In this document: piece after piece, positions 6,596 to 18,562 of the stretch
How the letters are laid out: each line of letters begins with the position of its first letter
Position numbering within the stretch: the stretch's first letter is position 1
Source of the DNA: Lacipirellula parvula
GTDB lineage: Bacteria; Planctomycetota; Planctomycetia; Pirellulales; Lacipirellulaceae
DNA length: 64,000 nucleotides
Assembly (NCBI RefSeq): GCF_009177095.1
Contig: NZ_AP021861.1
Coordinates: 3,516,501 to 3,580,500 of the forward strand
Direction of reading: 5' to 3'
The notes under the pieces: model-generated
What the model was told of the DNA's origin: nothing
The model's database searches: none
What the model saw: the letters and a program-made list of their open reading frames with translations, nothing else
Program-made: the position numbers and the translations under genes

Positions 6596-9500
6596 TTGGA
6601 CGCATCGCTCTTTTCTCGCCCTCCGCTTCGTTCCACTTTCGAAGTGACGGCCGACCGACTCAAGCCGGCAGGCAACGACGAGGAATTCGCGTTGCACCGC
6701 GCGGCGCTCGAGTGGAGCCTGGCCGATCCGATCGTTATTCACAGCATTGAGGACGTCAAATCGCGAACCGAGTGGCGTGAAGGATTCGCCCCCTTCGAGC
6801 ATCAGGTTCAAAACCTTATTACGTTCTGCCGATGCTTGCCGGTGACGCTGCTCGCCGACGACGTCGGCCTCGGCAAAACGATCAGCGCCGCACTGATTTT
6901 GTGCGAGTTGATGAAGCGCCATCGCATCTCGCGGACGCTGGTGCTGTGCCCCAGCATTCTTTGCGAGCAGTGGGGCGAGGAACTCGAGACGAAGGTCGGC
7001 ATCTTTGCGCGCACGGCGAAAGGGGCGGACCTCGATCGTGAACTGCGGGGGCAATGTCCCGTCGTGGTCACCACGTACGAATCGGGCGTACGGCGCCTCG
7101 CCTCTGTCCCCGCGGGTGCGTTCGACATGCTCATCCTCGACGAAGCCCACAAGCTGCGGAACCTCCACGGTACGGCGCAACCGCCCAAGATGGCGCAGAA
7201 GCTTCACAAGGCGCTTGAGCAACGGCTGTTCAAATACGTGCTGATGCTGACAGCCACGCCCATTCACAACCGGCTCTGGGATCTCTACTCGCTAATTTCG
7301 TGTCTGACGATCGCTAAAGGGCACAAAAACCCGCTGGGTGAACCGGCCCAATTCTCTGCTCGCTACATTGCCGACGCCCCGGCGGCGCGGCGCCTACGCG
7401 ACGGAACGCAGGAGCCGTTCAAGGAAATCTTGCGACAGTACGTCGTCCGCACCCGCCGCCAAGACGCCGGTTTGGTGTTTCCAGATCGACGAGTCGATCT
7501 CCAGTCGGTAGCCGCGACGTCCGAAGAGATCGAGATGCAGCGACTTGTCGCGGAGCACCTCGACGGGATGAACGGCCTGCTGCAAACATCGATCCTGACC
7601 GCGCTAATGAGCAGTCCGCAGGCGCTGCTCGCTCAGCTGAACAATATGGCGGAGCGAAACCCCTTCTTCGCGGAACTCAGGGATGCAATTCGTAGGCTCG
7701 TCGATCCCAACAGGAACTTCGCGAAGGCTGAAGGCCTGCGGTTGATCATTCAGGAACTGCGCGAAAAGCGTCCCGACGACTGGCGCGTCCTGGTGTTCAC
7801 CGGCCGCAAAGAAACGCAAGCCGCGATTGGCCGCATGCTGGAGCGCGAAGGCGTGAAGTTCGGCTTCATCTCCGGCGGCGAAGCGAACGCCAACATGCGG
7901 ACGATTAAACAGTTCATGAACGATCGGCCCGAAGTTTCGGTCGTCGTCTCGACGGACTCAGGCGCCGAGGGCGTCAACCTGCAAAAATGCAATGTGCTGG
8001 TCAACTACGATCTGCCGTGGAACCCGATGGTCGTCGAACAGCGCATCGGTCGTATTCAGCGTCTGTCTTCGGTCCACCGCTTTGTGACCGTATTCAATTT
8101 GTGCCTGGCAGGCAGCCCCGAGCAGCGCGTCGTCGCGCGGCTGATGGAGAAGCTGCAAACAATCTCCGCGACCGTCGGCGATATCGAAGCCATTCTTGAA
8201 ACGACCTACGGCGAATCGAAAGACACGGCTGAATCGTTCGCCGTCCAGGTGCGGAGGCTCGTCGTCGAGTCGCTATCAGGGCAGGACGTCGAGCTAGCGA
8301 TGAAGAAGACTGAAGCTAGCCTAGAAAAGGGCAAGCAGTTGCTTAAAAAACGCGCCGGCGAACTCGATCGCACGTTAGGCAGATTGGACGCGCTTCACAA
8401 AACCGGCCCAGCAGCCCCCAAGGTCGCTCGCACCGAACCGCGGCTACCCCATCGCCAATTTGTCGAGCGAGCGCTCGCTGCACGGGGCGCCACGCTATCC
8501 AGCGCTAGCAACGGCGTTTTCTTAGCGTCCTACGCTGATCGTCCAAACGAAGAGTTGACCTTCGATGAAGAGATTTGGCGGTCGCGCGCCACCGACGGCG
8601 TGTTTCAGGGTCGCGCGCCAAAGCTTTACTTGCCCGGCAAGCCCGATTTCGAGCGTCTAGTCCAGCACTGGATCGACCACGCCAGTCATCGCGTGAAACC
8701 GGCCGACAGCGCCTGCAAGGCGGAGGCCGAGCAGCTCGCAACTAACTGGCTAACGCGAATTCCGCAGGCCCAGCTAACAGGGGTTGAGTACACGCCCAGC
8801 GCCCGGCAGTTCGCCGGCACGGCCACCGTAAAAGCCGCCGTCCACAATGCGGTCGATAGCTACGAGAAGCTTATCGACGCGCCCATCATGGCTAACGACG
8901 GGTTGGTGAGCGAAACTTTTCGCACCGATCAGGCGGGGTACGTGAACGACGCCCTCGAACCCGCCGGCGTGGCCGCCGATATCCGCAGCGTCGTGAGATC
9001 GTCGATCGAGACCGATCAAGACGTCATTGCGTTCAGCGACTTTTACGAGCGACGGCTGCGGGAAGAGCTAGCCAAAACTGCCGGCGATGCGCCGATGGAA
9101 AAGAAGATCATCGGCGACTTCCAGCCGACGATCCATGGCTATGTTTTGAGTTTGGAAGGCAACTTCCGCACCAGCGGCCAACTCGTCGTGAAGTTCTCGA
9201 TCGACGGCCAAGGCGACTACGAAGCGATGCTCGAGGGGCGTCCCGCGACGGGCGAGGTCGTCACGGCGCCGGCGTTCGCGAATTGCCAAGAGACGGGAGC
9301 CGCCGTGCCAGAGAACTGCCTCACGCGGTGCCAACTGACGCGCAAGTTGGTCCTCAAGCATTTGCTCGTCGAGTCGGCGGAATCTGGAAAGCTCGGGCTT
9401 AAAAAGCTCTGCCAGGCATGCCAAGAAACCGGCCGCCTCGTTTTCCCGGACGAACTCGCCCGTTGCGAGATCACCGGCAACCGCGTCGCGCGCAGCACCG

Positions 9501-12367
9501 TGCAACTATCGGCCATGTCTGGCCGCCTTGGCTTGCAGCGGTTAATGGAGACGTGCGACTTCACAGGCGCGCGGGTGCTTCCGGCAGAAATCCTCGCTAG
9601 TCAAATCAGCGGCAAGAGATATCGCGCAGACGAAGGAGCCGAATCGAGCGTTTCGAATCAGCGCGGACATCGCAGCGAGTTCATTCAATGCGAACTGACG
9701 CGAGAACCAATCCTGGCAAGCGAGTCGGTCGTCAGCGACGTCAGCGGTCGCAACGTTCGATACGATGCGACCGTCGTTTCCGAAAAACCGCCTCACCGGC
9801 AAGGCGCCAGCGACGAAGCGGTTCAATGCGACGCCACCGGCCGGCGCCTGCTCGTTGACGAGGCAAAACAGTCGGCGGCGTCGGGTCGAATGGTCGACGT
9901 CGAATTGCTAGTCCCTTCGGAGGAAAGCGGCCGCCTGGCGCTGGCTGATGAGATGGTCGTCTGCGAGCAGTCCGGCAAGCGAATCTTGCCCGACGAAGCC
10001 GGCCAATCAGACGTCTCCGGGCAAACGATCTGCCAATCGCTCCTGTTTCGCTCGCCGATTGACGGACGCCGGGGACGCGGAAGCGAAACGGCAGTCTGCG
10101 AGTTTTCCTCAGACCGCATCCTCGCCGACGAGTTGGTCGTCAGCGACTATTCCGGCAAGCGGCTACGGAAGGATCGCGCCGTCGCGTCGCAGCTTTCGGA
10201 GCGCATCGGCGATCGCTCCGAAGCGGTGCAGTGCGAGTACACCGGCGTCATCGTTCTTCCCGACGAGGCGGGGCGATCCGCGCTCACTCAGAAACGCGCC
10301 GCGCTGAGGGCCTTAACGCCTTCCGAAAAATCGGGACGCGTCGGCGTCGCCTCGGCCGGGGAACTCGTTCGTTGCGAACTCACGGGCAAGCTGCTTCTGC
10401 GCGATGAGACAGCCGCCTCGGTCATCTCCCACAAAGTCGTCGATCGAGAACTGCTCACCCCCTCCGACGAAAGCGGCCGGCTGGCGCTGGCGGAAGAAAT
10501 GTTCGTGTGCACCGCCACGGGCAAGCCCATCCTTCCCGCCGAAGCGGCCCGTTCCGAGGTTTCGGGCGCCATCGTTCGGCGTCGTTTGCTGCAAGCGTCA
10601 GCCATCGGCGGACGCCTCGGCCTCGCAGAAGAAACCGTCGCGTGCGAGCTGACGGGCGCCAGCGTCCTCCGCGACGAGCTGTCCGTAAGCGAAGTTTCCG
10701 GAGCCCGTTATAGAAATGATCAATCGGTGGTTTCCGAAGTCTCCGGCCGCCGCGGACATGCTTCCGAGGGCGTCGAATGCGGCTACACCGGTCGCCTGCT
10801 CTTGCGCGACGAGGCGGCTCAGTCCGCAGTGAGCGGCAAGTGGGCGCTGCTTGCCGAACTAACGCCGTCGGAGAAATCTCAACGCTTGGGACGCGCGGCC
10901 TCAGGCGAATTCACGCACTGTGAAACGACGGGACGCCAGTTGCTCAGCGACGAGATCGCCGCCTGCGAAGTCACCGGCAAGCAAGTCGACGTCGATTTGC
11001 TGGTCGCCTCCGCGGCAAGCGGCCGCCGAGCCCTGGCCGAATGCTTGCGCTCGTGCGAAGCCACGGGCCAGCGGGTTCTGCCCGACGAACTGGCGCTATC
11101 AGACGCATCGGGCAAGTCGGTCCTCGCTACGCATCTACGCAAGTCTGCCGCCAGCGACCGTCGCTGCCTGCAAGCGGAGATGAAGCAGTGCGCGTTCACC
11201 GACGCCTGGGTGTTGCCCGATGAAATTCAAGTCAGTCAGTATTCCGCGAAACCGTTTCGCAGCGACGAAGCGATCGCTTCGGCGATTTCCAGCAGAACGG
11301 GCCATGCGTCGGAGTTTGTGACGTGCGACTACTCGCGCCGCAAATTGCTGCCCGATGAGACGAGCCCGTCGGATGCAACGGGCCGGCTTGCCGGCGTCGA
11401 TCTACTCGCCCAATCCGAACACTCGAAACGAAAGGGAGTGCAACTGGCAGGCGAAGTCTGCCAGTGCGAATCGACCGGCAAGAGAGTGCTATGGGATGAA
11501 ACTGCGATCTGCGCCGCGACGGGTAAGCGAGTCGTCTCGGAATTGCTCGTTTCGTCTGAAGCATCAGGCTTGAAAGGCCTCCCTGAAGCGATGGTCCGCT
11601 GTGAAAAGTCGGGAGCCCGTTTGCTCCCCAGCGAAACATCGCACTGCGAAGTTTCTCAACAGCGGGTCGATTCGCGACTGACGATCGCCAGCGGTATTTC
11701 AGGACGGCACTGCTTGAAAGAGTACGCGATCACCTGCAGCGTGACGCGGAAAACGGGATTGCCCGATGAGGTCCGTATCTGCGAAAGCTCTCAACTGCCG
11801 GTCGTCGTTTCCAAGCTGAAGCAATGTTTTGCGACTGGCAAGGTCACCAACGAAGACCTCATGTTACGCAGCAACGAATCAGGAAATTGGCTGCTGAAAC
11901 AGCACGCCCGGCAATCAAAGATTGTGCCCGGGTATTACGCCGCCCACGAACTCGTGCAATGCCAATGGCTGGAGGAAGAAATTCCGCTCAGCCACACCGC
12001 CGAATGCCAATGGACCGGATTGAGATTTGCCGCGAGCCAACTTGAAGCATCGCACCACTTGTCTGCCCTGAGCGATTTGATGTCGGGCAAACTCGCCTAC
12101 AGCGGCGGTGCGCACCTCGGGGACTGGCTGAAGCAGTTGCATCCCGAGCTGTTCAGCGGGCTCCACTCAGTGCAAATCGCCGGCTCACCCAAGAAAGGCG
12201 TCTACGCTTTCGTGTGCGAGATGCATCGCGCGTTCGGCTTTAAGAAACGCGTTGCCGCGTTCCTGGCCTCAAACCACGATCCGAAACGGATCATCGGCAA
12301 GATCGCCCTGTTCCGCCTGGAGCGGAAGGAGCTGACGTTCCAAGAGGCGGTCGCTGCCTCACAGTGA
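6596..12367 (+). CDS. SNF2 (RapA/HepA-like) helicase with giant 15-residue repeat array
   Basis: The 1923-aa protein starts at TTG 6596; an in-frame TAA at 6581 excludes earlier starts and AAAGG is spaced 9 bp upstream. Residues 60-520 are an SNF2 ATPase: Walker A DDVGLGKT (88-95), DEAH (182-185), TATP (219-222), and the helicase-C motif QRIGRIQR (482-489) after AEGVNLQ. This predicts ATP-driven movement on double-stranded DNA. Residues 520-890 are helical and unassigned. Residues 897-1818 are 61 tandem units of about 15 residues, [CS]xx[ST]G(K/R)xxLxxE. Every third unit from 1 to 55 starts with Cys, and a pattern of 12 units (180-182 residues) is repeated five times, with module starts at residues 897, 1078, 1260, 1442 and 1624. 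The last 105 residues form a separate domain. The gene has no partner on its strand. Role in repair, transcription recycling or defence is undetermined. Confidence 0.85.
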   Translation: MDASLFSRPPLRSTFEVTADRLKPAGNDEEFALHRAALEWSLADPIVIHSIEDVKSRTEWREGFAPFEHQVQNLITFCRCLPVTLLADDVGLGKTISAALILCELMKRHRISRTLVLCPSILCEQWGEELETKVGIFARTAKGADLDRELRGQCPVVVTTYESGVRRLASVPAGAFDMLILDEAHKLRNLHGTAQPPKMAQKLHKALEQRLFKYVLMLTATPIHNRLWDLYSLISCLTIAKGHKNPLGEPAQFSARYIADAPAARRLRDGTQEPFKEILRQYVVRTRRQDAGLVFPDRRVDLQSVAATSEEIEMQRLVAEHLDGMNGLLQTSILTALMSSPQALLAQLNNMAERNPFFAELRDAIRRLVDPNRNFAKAEGLRLIIQELREKRPDDWRVLVFTGRKETQAAIGRMLEREGVKFGFISGGEANANMRTIKQFMNDRPEVSVVVSTDSGAEGVNLQKCNVLVNYDLPWNPMVVEQRIGRIQRLSSVHRFVTVFNLCLAGSPEQRVVARLMEKLQTISATVGDIEAILETTYGESKDTAESFAVQVRRLVVESLSGQDVELAMKKTEASLEKGKQLLKKRAGELDRTLGRLDALHKTGPAAPKVARTEPRLPHRQFVERALAARGATLSSASNGVFLASYADRPNEELTFDEEIWRSRATDGVFQGRAPKLYLPGKPDFERLVQHWIDHASHRVKPADSACKAEAEQLATNWLTRIPQAQLTGVEYTPSARQFAGTATVKAAVHNAVDSYEKLIDAPIMANDGLVSETFRTDQAGYVNDALEPAGVAADIRSVVRSSIETDQDVIAFSDFYERRLREELAKTAGDAPMEKKIIGDFQPTIHGYVLSLEGNFRTSGQLVVKFSIDGQGDYEAMLEGRPATGEVVTAPAFANCQETGAAVPENCLTRCQLTRKLVLKHLLVESAESGKLGLKKLCQACQETGRLVFPDELARCEITGNRVARSTVQLSAMSGRLGLQRLMETCDFTGARVLPAEILASQISGKRYRADEGAESSVSNQRGHRSEFIQCELTREPILASESVVSDVSGRNVRYDATVVSEKPPHRQGASDEAVQCDATGRRLLVDEAKQSAASGRMVDVELLVPSEESGRLALADEMVVCEQSGKRILPDEAGQSDVSGQTICQSLLFRSPIDGRRGRGSETAVCEFSSDRILADELVVSDYSGKRLRKDRAVASQLSERIGDRSEAVQCEYTGVIVLPDEAGRSALTQKRAALRALTPSEKSGRVGVASAGELVRCELTGKLLLRDETAASVISHKVVDRELLTPSDESGRLALAEEMFVCTATGKPILPAEAARSEVSGAIVRRRLLQASAIGGRLGLAEETVACELTGASVLRDELSVSEVSGARYRNDQSVVSEVSGRRGHASEGVECGYTGRLLLRDEAAQSAVSGKWALLAELTPSEKSQRLGRAASGEFTHCETTGRQLLSDEIAACEVTGKQVDVDLLVASAASGRRALAECLRSCEATGQRVLPDELALSDASGKSVLATHLRKSAASDRRCLQAEMKQCAFTDAWVLPDEIQVSQYSAKPFRSDEAIASAISSRTGHASEFVTCDYSRRKLLPDETSPSDATGRLAGVDLLAQSEHSKRKGVQLAGEVCQCESTGKRVLWDETAICAATGKRVVSELLVSSEASGLKGLPEAMVRCEKSGARLLPSETSHCEVSQQRVDSRLTIASGISGRHCLKEYAITCSVTRKTGLPDEVRICESSQLPVVVSKLKQCFATGKVTNEDLMLRSNESGNWLLKQHARQSKIVPGYYAAHELVQCQWLEEEIPLSHTAECQWTGLRFAASQLEASHHLSALSDLMSGKLAYSGGAHLGDWLKQLHPELFSGLHSVQIAGSPKKGVYAFVCEMHRAFGFKKRVAAFLASNHDPKRIIGKIALFRLERKELTFQEAVAASQ
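9284..12049 (+). repeat. Coding tandem repeat: 61 x 15 residues in five 12-unit modules
   Basis: This is the repeat part of the helicase gene, residues 897-1818. Units such as CEQSGKRILPDEAGQ, SDVSGQTICQSLLFR and SEESGRLALADEMVV repeat every 45 bases. Unit-specific marks recur every 12 units: GH(R/A)SE in units 9, 33 and 45 (GDRSE in 21); 17-residue versions in units 24, 36 and 48; (V/L)D-x-(E/D)LL in units 14, 26 and 38. At the DNA level the units have diverged well beyond recognition as recent duplication. Confidence 0.88.
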
Positions 12368-16465: not shown

Positions 16466-16768
16466 GAGCGCGAAACGCCCACTTTTCTCGGCTATTCTCA
16501 CAATTTCCCGAATTCCAAAATTCTTCCCGTAACCGCCGTCGCGCCGCCGTTAAGTAACTGAGGCTCATCAGGCGCGAGTTCTTCCCGGCGGCACTTTTCT
16601 GGGGAAACGGCCCGCCTGCAGTCGCGATCAGACATGCGGAGAATCCAGGCGTTGCGGCATTGCCCGTAGCGCCTGGGTTCGACCGCCAGCGGCGTGCGGA
16701 CTCCTGTTCAGGCGTCCCGAAACATCAGCTTTGCAACACTCGTCTCGACATCTGGGAGTAACGCTACT
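16383..16768. other. Gap between gatB and a PEP-CTERM gene
   Basis: 386 bp with no gene. It contains the inverted repeat above and GGGAG at 16754-16758, the ribosome site of the next gene. No clear promoter was found. Confidence 0.4.
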
Positions 16769-18352
16769 GTGAACATCCGCAATCGATTCTCGCGCCTGCT
16801 CGGCGCGGGGGCGGCCCTCTGCCTGGTCGCCGCTCCGCTTCATGGAGCCAACATCTACTGGCAGGGGACGAACGTCTCGGGCAACCTCATGGGGCCCAAT
16901 TACACCGACGGCGTCACCAACAATCTCACGCCCACCGCGAGCGACGTCGTTCACGTCGGCGGCGGCGGAACGGCTTCTTACTCGACGCCAGGCACGGTGA
17001 GCCTGCAGAAGCTGCGCGTCGGCCACAATACGGTGGCGCCTGCCAATCCAGGCACGGGCATCGTCAATCTCAGCAACGGCGCCAAGATCGATCTGACCGT
17101 TGGCGGCGCCGGCGGCGCCAACGCCTCGTTGTGGGTCGGCAACGTGCAGAACGGCACGCTCAATATCGACGGCGCCGGCACCAGTGTCACCGCGGCCCGC
17201 TTCATCGCGATCGGCTACGGCAACAACGTCGCCCGTATGGGTACGGTGAACATCACCAACGGCGGCTCCCTGATCGCCACGCTGGGGAACATCAATCTCG
17301 GCGAATCGAACAACGCCATGAACGGCGTGCAGGGGCACGTCAACGTCGACGGTACGGTCTCGGCGATGAGCGCCGGCGCCGACCTGGTCGTCGGCGTCTA
17401 CGGCGCCAAGTCGACGTTCACGCAAACGGGCGGCCTGGTCTCGATCGACGATTCGATCGAAGTCGGCGCCAGCACGAGCCTTATCGCCAACGTCGGTTCC
17501 AGCTACAGCATCTCCGGCGGCACGACGACCCACAGCGGCAACTTCTTCCTCGGCCGCGGCGCCTCGGTAAACGCCACCGCCAACATTTCTGGCACGGCGA
17601 TCCTCAACACCGGCAACCGCTTCCTGATGGGCGCCGGCACGGCGACCGGCGTCGTCACCAACCACTCGGGCGGCACGCTCAACACGACGCTTGATCTCCG
17701 CGTCGGCGACTCGGGCAGCGGCGACACGACCTACAACCTGAGTGGCACAGGCGTCATTAACTCGACCACCGGCGGCATCGTCGGTCGGCAAGGAGCCGCC
17801 AAGTTCTTCCAAACTGGCGGCGTCGCCAACTTCAACGGCACGCTGTCGATCGGCAACCGCGAAACGGCCACCGGCGCCAACAGCGGCTTGTACAAGATCT
17901 CGGCCGGCGATCTGAACATTGCCACCGCGCTCAACGTCGCCAACAACGGCGTCGGCGAGTTCCGCGTCGTCGGCGACGACGCCACGATCGACGTCACCGG
18001 CAACATGCTCGTCGGCAACACGGCCAACGGCCTCGGCACGCTCGCCTTCGAACTCGAAACGGGCGACATCCTCTCGCAACTGGCCGTCACCGGCACGGCG
18101 ACGTTTAGCTCCGGCGCCGCGCTGGTGTTCGATGCGACGAATGCCGCACCGACGCAGAACGTGTATAATCTGCTCACCGCGGCGAGCATCGTCGACAGCG
18201 GCATCGCCTTCACCGCCCCAACGGGTTGGAGCTACCAGATCGTCAGCGGCGGCAACGGGCAGATCCTGCAGGCCGTGATGGCCGTGCCGGAACCGAGCAC
18301 GATTGGCTTGGCGCTGCTGGCGGGCATTGGGTTGGTTCGTCGTCGTCGCTAA
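16769..18352 (+). CDS. Secreted PEP-CTERM protein with autotransporter-like beta-helix repeats
   Basis: The start is GTG 16769 with GGGAG 10 bp upstream. The 527-aa product begins MNIRNRFSRLLGAGAALCLV, a signal peptide. The body is rich in Gly, Asn, Thr and Ala, with recurring short strands (NITNGGSLIATLGNINLGES, FTQTGGLVSIDDSIEVGAST, NISGTAILNTGNRFLMGAGT) as in right-handed beta-helices of PEP-CTERM and autotransporter passenger proteins. The tail AVPEPSTIGLALLAGIGLVR plus RRR is a textbook PEP-CTERM signal. It is probably a surface or matrix protein. A T-tailed terminator follows. Confidence 0.85.
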   Translation: MNIRNRFSRLLGAGAALCLVAAPLHGANIYWQGTNVSGNLMGPNYTDGVTNNLTPTASDVVHVGGGGTASYSTPGTVSLQKLRVGHNTVAPANPGTGIVNLSNGAKIDLTVGGAGGANASLWVGNVQNGTLNIDGAGTSVTAARFIAIGYGNNVARMGTVNITNGGSLIATLGNINLGESNNAMNGVQGHVNVDGTVSAMSAGADLVVGVYGAKSTFTQTGGLVSIDDSIEVGASTSLIANVGSSYSISGGTTTHSGNFFLGRGASVNATANISGTAILNTGNRFLMGAGTATGVVTNHSGGTLNTTLDLRVGDSGSGDTTYNLSGTGVINSTTGGIVGRQGAAKFFQTGGVANFNGTLSIGNRETATGANSGLYKISAGDLNIATALNVANNGVGEFRVVGDDATIDVTGNMLVGNTANGLGTLAFELETGDILSQLAVTGTATFSSGAALVFDATNAAPTQNVYNLLTAASIVDSGIAFTAPTGWSYQIVSGGNGQILQAVMAVPEPSTIGLALLAGIGLVRRRR

Positions 18353-18397
18353 CGACGACGAATCGCGGCAATCGCCGCGACTAGTTGACTCTTCATC

Positions 18398-18433
18398 ACT
18401 AGCCCCCGGTCGCTGACCGGGGGCTAGTTTTTT
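18398..18433 (+). terminator. Intrinsic terminator after the PEP-CTERM gene
   Basis: ACTAGCCCCCGGTC pairs with GACCGGGGGCTAGT over a 3-base loop and runs into TTTTTT. This is a strong Rho-independent terminator. Confidence 0.85.
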
Positions 18434-18562
18434 GCGCCGACGTCGCCGCATACTCACGCCGCTACGCCAAACTCCCGGGTCACTGCCGCCATGTGTTAAA
18501 CTTCAACTATTCACTTCGATAGATTCCCTCCCGCCGCCCCTGCAGTTCGCCTCGCCGCTCAC

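Follow-up and report, generated by a model that had tools for sequence, protein, structure and literature searches.

A candidate family of SNF2-type DNA translocases with a C-terminal array of most likely metal-free knuckle units in Lacipirellula parvula

Introduction

SNF2 motors recur in bacterial defense, and how they recruit their effectors is mostly open. Here we describe a gene at positions 6596 to 12367 of a 64,000-nucleotide stretch of the planctomycete Lacipirellula parvula (assembly GCF_009177095.1, contig NZ_AP021861.1, positions 3,516,501 to 3,580,500 of the forward strand; hereafter the window), whose product joins an SNF2-type motor to a long array of Cys- or Ser-led knuckle units. 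DrmD of DISARM, DpdE and BrxHI of BREX belong to the same SNF2 branch and gave the best NCBIfam and PADLOC matches of the window protein, which reaches 199 of the 610 bits needed for NF038317 and 162 of the 500 bits needed for NF041062 (NCBIfam). At 198.9 bits versus a curated cut-off of 610 bits it falls outside DISARM DrmD, its best NCBIfam stretches end by residue 594, and no DISARM, Dpd or BREX genes were noticed among the neighboring open reading frames (ORFs) scanned. Nor is it a member of RapA (PRK04914; 103.1 bits versus a cut-off of 576 bits, expect value (E) 1.3e-29); it resembles RapA in the SNF2 core and, weakly, in a fold that is probably that of the post-core region, and RapA to our knowledge lacks a comparable tail. 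In the literature searched we recognized nothing as a family combining an SNF2 motor with a knuckle array.

Our reading, to which we assign a probability of about 0.5, is that the gene represents a family of ATP-driven translocases of double-stranded DNA in which a most likely metal-free knuckle arm serves as ruler and docking scaffold, for surveillance of foreign or damaged DNA or for restriction.

Results and Discussion

Architecture of the Window Protein

The window gene encodes a motor, a post-helicase region, a repeat array and a C-terminal domain (L and G numbers below are our handles for loci and genomes):

6596 to 12367, + strand: whole gene, 1923 residues, TTG start
6794 to 8215, + strand: SNF2-type ATPase core, residues ~67-540 (Pfam and motif reading)
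8216 to 9283, + strand: post-helicase region, residues ~541-896, perhaps RapA-like (Foldseek of relative L063)
9284 to 12049, + strand: repeat array of 61 [CS]xx[ST]G knuckle units of ~15 residues, residues 897-1818 (motif positions, segmentation and model)
12050 to 12364, + strand: C-terminal domain, residues 1819-1923, common to aligned relatives (alignments and model)

Upstream of the TTG at 6596 the frame stays open for only about four residues, and this TTG is the putative start. Both SNF2-rel_dom (PF00176, 92.4 bits) and Helicase_C (PF00271, 66.2 bits) exceed their Pfam cut-offs, and the motifs DDVGLGKT, DEAH, LTATP and QRIGRIQR are intact; with both domains, Walker A, DEAH and motif VI present, the protein falls within the SNF2 ATPase superfamily, as an earlier reading made from the sequence alone (the sequence-only reading) had assigned it. 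Past residue 540 Pfam gives merely two matches, at E 0.09 and 0.14. The post-helicase region is perhaps the RapA-like part, judging from the L063 model.

The Repeat Array

The 61 units fall into five modules and a last unit:

9284 to 9826, + strand: module 1, residues 897-1077
9827 to 10372, + strand: module 2, residues 1078-1259
10373 to 10918, + strand: module 3, residues 1260-1441
10919 to 11464, + strand: module 4, residues 1442-1623
11465 to 12004, + strand: module 5, residues 1624-1803, the most diverged (28-38% identity to the other modules)
12005 to 12049, + strand: unit 61 (CQWTG...), the last, starting at residue 1804

Unit borders were drawn from motif positions and cross-checked by an independent dynamic-programming segmentation, which likewise yielded 61 units and disagreed solely on where unit 11 ends and unit 12 begins. 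The unit number and the starts at residues 897, 1078, 1260, 1442, 1624 and 1804 that the sequence-only reading had given all proved exact, as did its rule that Cys opens every unit numbered 1 mod 3 from 1 to 55 (19 of 19); later in this series come a Ser at the start of unit 58 and a Cys at that of unit 61. Most other units were said to begin with Ser, and 31 of the 40 do so, with eight opening with Cys and unit 12 starting on either Ser or Glu by choice of border. The proposed unit pattern held at position 4 (Ser or Thr in 56 of 61 units) and position 5 (Gly in 41 of 61), with a less consistent Glu at position 12 (32 of 57 among the units exactly 15 residues long). We counted 40 [CS]xx[ST]G motifs versus a maximum of 6 in 2000 shuffles, and 23 motif pairs exactly 15 residues apart versus a maximum of 1; similarity along the unit order, evaluated with 500 permutations, gave z scores of 6.9, 9.8 and 7.8 at lags of 3, 12 and 24 units, respectively. 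Aligned relatives likewise close their arrays with a C-x-x-[ST] unit ahead of the C-terminal domain, which in the L063 model comprises two helices followed mainly by strands.

Protein identity among the five modules is 28-52%. At agreeing degenerate residues, third codon positions of the compared modules agree at 0.26-0.44, versus 0.31 expected from the third-position composition of the gene itself. Since third codon positions are near chance and the protein pattern has been kept, the duplications are old and the pattern has been maintained by selection. The G+C content of the repeats (0.618) is similar to the 0.607 for the part of the gene before them and the 0.62 for the window. A further possibility is that the array passively separates the motor from the C-terminal domain, its regularity being a leftover of duplication. 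Such a role would suit a unit number that ranges from 13 to 61 among relatives, but the protein pattern kept despite near-chance third codon positions, the residues that stay invariant at set positions in different phyla and the high model confidence described below make it quite unlikely.

The window array had no significant match in Pfam, NCBIfam, PADLOC, PDB sequences or Foldseek (best Pfam E 0.09), and searches with array profiles gave none either (best E 0.6, MfpA), in line with the sequence-only reading, which knew of no named domain with this layout. On L054 (6448-12222), a long and distant planctomycete relative, PF00766 scored 29.6 bits versus a cut-off of 27 (E 7.1e-7, 19 residues), with no single stretch passing; we take this to be a chance product of the repeats. 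DUF2093 (PF09866) appeared below cut-off on relatives' arrays (E 3.3e-4 on L054 and 0.18 on L052) and was not taken as homology. This small bacterial family, which we take to be one CxxTG-type unit, may represent a single unit of the array's kind, and we know of no array in it.

Metal Ligands and the Origin of the Knuckles

Potential metal ligands were counted over 441 units from 17 proteins. CxxC occurred in 0 of the 441 units, position 4 being Ser or Thr in 402 of them; Cys opened 243 units. Neighboring unit pairs never contained more than two Cys across the four knuckle ligand places, and in the window protein 52 of 60 such pairs contained one or none. The second knuckle Cys is thus nearly always Ser or Thr and no four-ligand site results; the array lacks the four Cys/His ligands in CxxC pairs of zinc ribbon and LIM domains. 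A zinc array of the usual four-ligand geometry is rejected on these counts, and metal binding of the usual kind, which the sequence-only reading had considered possible, was not borne out. Judged by their sequences, the units are most likely metal-free because the second Cys is Ser or Thr.

Taking the array as a zinc-binding tail would account for the frequent Cys starts, for the 12 of 17 unit starts at which nine aligned relatives all have Cys or all have Ser, and for a weak Foldseek list that holds LIM, PHD and RING zinc domains together with a phage LIM-domain protein; the absence of CxxC and the low ligand count per pair leave this very unlikely. The invariant starts indicate that Cys and Ser are not freely exchangeable at those places and hence have some role; at other starts (e.g., unit 13) the two do interchange. 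The likeness to LIM, zinc-ribbon and PHD domains (e.g., 2xjy, 2naa, 7d2t) lies in predicted tandem knuckle hairpins (weak Foldseek matches, E≥0.18, probability ≤0.57), whereas in the array the second knuckle Cys is nearly always Ser or Thr.

True CxxC knuckles do occur in register with CxxTG units in short Pirellulales proteins and in L055, the spacing being 15 into the CxxC; from there the next CxxC follows at 17 in four short proteins and at 15 in L055. We read this as descent of the array from zinc knuckles with loss of the metal, a direction that we infer from the sequences. The short proteins L056, L057, L058 and L059 (6330-7652; own genome, C1 near 6449000) contain a few CxxTG-type units followed by CxxC knuckles, and it is possible that they represent intermediates. 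L056 and L057 have the same gene order, and no Pfam family exceeded its cut-off in L056, L057 or L059. FtsH ternary systems were considered on account of a weak ivWA match (E 0.016) in a short protein of the same genome and set aside; ivWA is not named in the available part of PMC7159879.

Predicted Structure

AlphaFold2 models were obtained for the post-helicase part of L063 (14 sequences) and for three modules of the window protein, that is its first 36 units (11 sequences), with some sequences common to both alignments. The mean predicted local distance difference test (pLDDT) score was 84.3 for L063, with ~90 over its repeats, and 88.5 for the three modules, where one weak spot lies at model residues 480-493; the predicted template modeling (pTM) scores were 0.46 and 0.41, respectively. 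In the window model 30 of 36 units run through loop (CxxTG[KR]), strand, short helix and strand (units 1, 13, 21, 32, 33 and 36 depart from this), with a 3-unit period of secondary structure in parts. We read each unit as a predicted knuckle hairpin, joined by a turn to the next. The models support an ordered array and speak against the disordered filler that the sequence-only reading had allowed for, while the low pTM is consistent with an elongated or flexible array and also limits statements on overall shape.

When the array alone was compared by Foldseek, no PDB entry passed E 0.001. Megalin/LRP2 chains ranked first (E 3.6e-3, probability 0.16) and were not taken as kin; they rank above the weak LIM matches to the modeled strand-loop-strand. 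The likeliest PDB rows were the LMO2 LIM domains (0.57), a microtubule entry (0.54), the NSD1 PHD pair (0.51) and PINCH LIM (0.44), none with an E better than 0.18. Against a viral library, adenovirus fibers came first for the 36 units (E 4.8e-9, probability 0.97) with very poor superposition, and matches at probability 1.00 included a phage LIM-domain protein (E 3.6e-4), a "prokaryotic metallothionein" (E 3.7e-3) and otherwise mostly uncharacterized phage and giant-virus proteins. A fibrous fold of 15-residue repeats working as a trimer, such as the triple beta-spiral of the adenovirus fiber shaft, would explain this first rank and what we take to be an equal repeat length. The listed matches, however, have root mean square deviations of 18.9-70.3 Å and template modeling (TM) scores of at most 0.13, and we know of neither a knuckle motif in the fiber repeat nor a trimeric SNF2 motor, which makes this the least probable of the alternatives considered.

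A Conserved Site in Units 8 and 9

Pattern search located the conserved site of units 8-9 four times in the window protein, one copy being partly degenerate:

9620 to 9679, + strand: site 1, units 8-9 (YR-x-D ... GH-x-[ST]-E)
10163 to 10222, + strand: site 2, module 2, partly degenerate (GD instead of GH)
10709 to 10768, + strand: site 3, module 3
11255 to 11314, + strand: site 4, module 4

Across nine aligned relatives R, D, G, H, E and F are invariant in these units. The pattern occurs once in nine 17-unit relatives (L053, L060, L062-L066, L068 and L069) and in L070, L052 and L054, and twice in L067, L122 and G019; in such form it is absent from L061, L104 and L055. These copy numbers indicate that duplications often multiply the site, except in the long L054.

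Relatives and Spread

The sequence-only reading had proposed a search of homologs for conserved unit counts; the architecture is indeed conserved, the count is not. Eleven of the 21 arrays counted have 17 units (L053, L060, L062-L066, L068, L069, L121 and L226) and four have 25 (L052, L061, L067 and L122), the others being L070 with 13, L055 with 30-31, L104 with 34, G019 with 37, the window protein with 61 and L054 with 60 by script or 61 after its last three units were corrected by eye. L070 (11563-12447) is exactly four units (60 residues) short of the 17-unit form, in register. The lag peak is at 12 units for the window protein, G019, L104 and L052 and at 8 for L067 and L122, and L054 has peaks at both 4 and 8; modules of 180 residues, in the size range first described, recur in some relatives, with steps of 60 and 120 residues in others. 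A strict rule of 4k+1 units fits 19 of 21 arrays and was abandoned, failing in L104 and L055. L055 (3640-9138) has HEAT repeats before the motor, CxxC-rich zinc-finger-like stretches flanking the array and, by eye, a 4-unit (60-residue) cassette; a protein kinase/FGE-sulfatase ORF follows the gene.

Among the matches listed from 59 related genomes, the sole tail-bearing relative was that of G019 (another genus of the same family), with 1557 residues and two 12-unit modules fewer than the window protein. Of 392 genomes of the phylum searched with a repeat profile, 8 gave matches, the own genome among them: G095, G114, G212 and G412 encode long relatives, and G049, G395, G413 and the own genome encode short proteins (427-504 residues). 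Scanning named genomes with the motor alignment gave at least 14 loci at 49-60% identity across nearly the whole query, below which, among the matches listed, identity drops straight to 35% and less. These 14 include Rhodopseudomonas (the 17-unit L060 being from R. pseudopalustris), Beijerinckiaceae, Hyphomonadaceae, Bradyrhizobium, Nitrospira, Elusimicrobia and three Planctomycetes, as well as Peregrinibacteria, Paceibacterota, Gracilibacteria, Uhrbacteria and one other Patescibacteria. Twelve have a full-length frame under translation table 11, each with the tail. The Gracilibacteria locus L068 (378-4082) is full-length with tail under code 25, where TGA is read as an amino acid, and its adjoining DUF2779 nuclease is likewise open only under that code; the Bradyrhizobium locus L121 (8932-12629) is split into two overlapping frames, with the tail in the second. 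The C..[ST]G motif was missing from four outgroup SNF2 ORFs (32-35% identity).

In the tree, 19 family rows form one clade (support 100/100) in which planctomycetes branch off first. Alphaproteobacteria, Elusimicrobia, Nitrospira, five candidate-phyla lineages and one planctomycete come together in an 11-row clade (100/100); L055 and L054 are long branches of unsure placement, and eight inner branches are shown as open. The tree is consistent with lateral spread of the 17-unit form, for which Planctomycetota are a possible source. The longest arms (37, 61 and 61 units) were seen in Planctomycetota, and the 17-unit form crosses phyla. Cargo of mobile elements was considered and rejected: among plasmid and phage records none reached 80% coverage of the relative L069, with matches spanning the motor. 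Two plasmid records were counted at 60-80% identity, neither among the matches listed, and the best 80 of 337 viral loci have 23-38% identity to the motor query.

Gene Neighborhood and Proposed Function

A restriction, nuclease, recombination or defense gene was present among the neighbors scanned or compared in 13 of 21 loci. The constant neighbor in the candidate-phyla loci (L062 and L065, for example) is a TM0106-type RecB-like nuclease (TIGR03491/COG2251)/DUF2779, described as PD-(D/E)XK-like with a presumed RNase H-like 3'-5' exonuclease (PMC3985635). Twenty-four other loci of TM0106-type/DUF2779 nucleases in the sampled phylum lack the knuckle tail, and the link between helicase and nuclease is well supported in this one lineage; the other lineages have a loose restriction/repair neighborhood. 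To this extent the idea of a system with conserved neighbors has some support, although it finds no counterpart among the ten ORFs scanned around the window gene. Elsewhere in the window, two long ORFs overlap on opposite strands (16628-18457, - strand; 16694-18352, + strand), the minus-strand one without a Pfam match.

Architecture, conservation, predicted order and a wide but thin spread are established for the family. We propose that the motor belongs to a RapA/DrmD-like branch of prokaryotic SNF2 proteins and would move on double-stranded DNA. Its tail would be an ordered array of 15-residue hairpin units with zinc-knuckle-like turns, the second Cys replaced by Ser or Thr, and this stiff arm, its repeats near neutral in charge in the window protein, would act as ruler and docking scaffold for partner proteins. 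The R-x-D...GH site of units 8-9 would be the docking spot, multiplied by 12- and 8-unit duplications. Its task would be to survey or restrict DNA that is foreign or damaged, with a partner nuclease or modification enzyme encoded nearby or, for the window gene, elsewhere. By analogy, the working mode may resemble that of SNF2 motors in restriction-like systems. A more specific version, in which an undescribed defense or DNA-surveillance family, built on an unrecognized solenoid of metal-free knuckles, would use a ruler tuned by 60-residue (four-unit) blocks, with longer modules each bearing a docking site, so as to hold an enzyme for cleavage or modification at a defined distance from the moving motor, is put forward tentatively and is somewhat doubtful.

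Several observations weigh against this proposal. A Pfam-only scan of ten ORFs around the window gene found no defense, nuclease, methylase or helicase gene; GatA and GatB lie downstream, and the two N6-methylase matches of the genome lie ~290-410 kilobases away. Eight of the 21 family loci lack a neighbor of the above kinds among the part of the neighboring ORFs scanned, and the figure of 13 of 21 carries no matched control, since the controls cover the nuclease pair only. Many defense systems travel on plasmids, phages or viral contigs, and the family was not seen on these among the matches listed. Several genomes are incomplete assemblies, so that an apparently only copy may be an undercount. 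Lastly, the ruler and docking roles are drawn solely from predicted shape, charge and conservation.

Some of the same observations suit a housekeeping motor, which would recycle RNA polymerase like RapA or act in DNA repair, with the arm docking on that machinery. In Foldseek, L063 residues 521-1234 found RapA first (8t0l_F, E 3.4e-3, probability 0.93, TM-score 0.15) and again as 6bog_A (E 3.3e-2, probability 0.89, low TM-score), with no match reaching E 0.001. This weak fold match, the PRK04914 match, the SbcCD, RmuC and ExoI-type neighbors at some loci and the position of the window gene beside GatA/GatB argue for such a role. The score of 103 bits versus the 576 of RapA, a prevalence below 2% of genomes in three samples, which is odd for such a role, and a tree that fits lateral spread argue against it, and we regard it as possible though unlikely.

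Implications

Whatever its task, the array is a repeat class without a significant match in the profile and structure libraries searched, and the in-register intermediates suggest a plausible evolutionary route from zinc knuckle to metal-free knuckle. Natural length variants of 13 to 61 units suit testing of the ruler model, and in the very small genomes of the candidate phyla the translocase has a likely nuclease partner. If the defense reading is true, the family bears on how SNF2 defense motors recruit their effectors.
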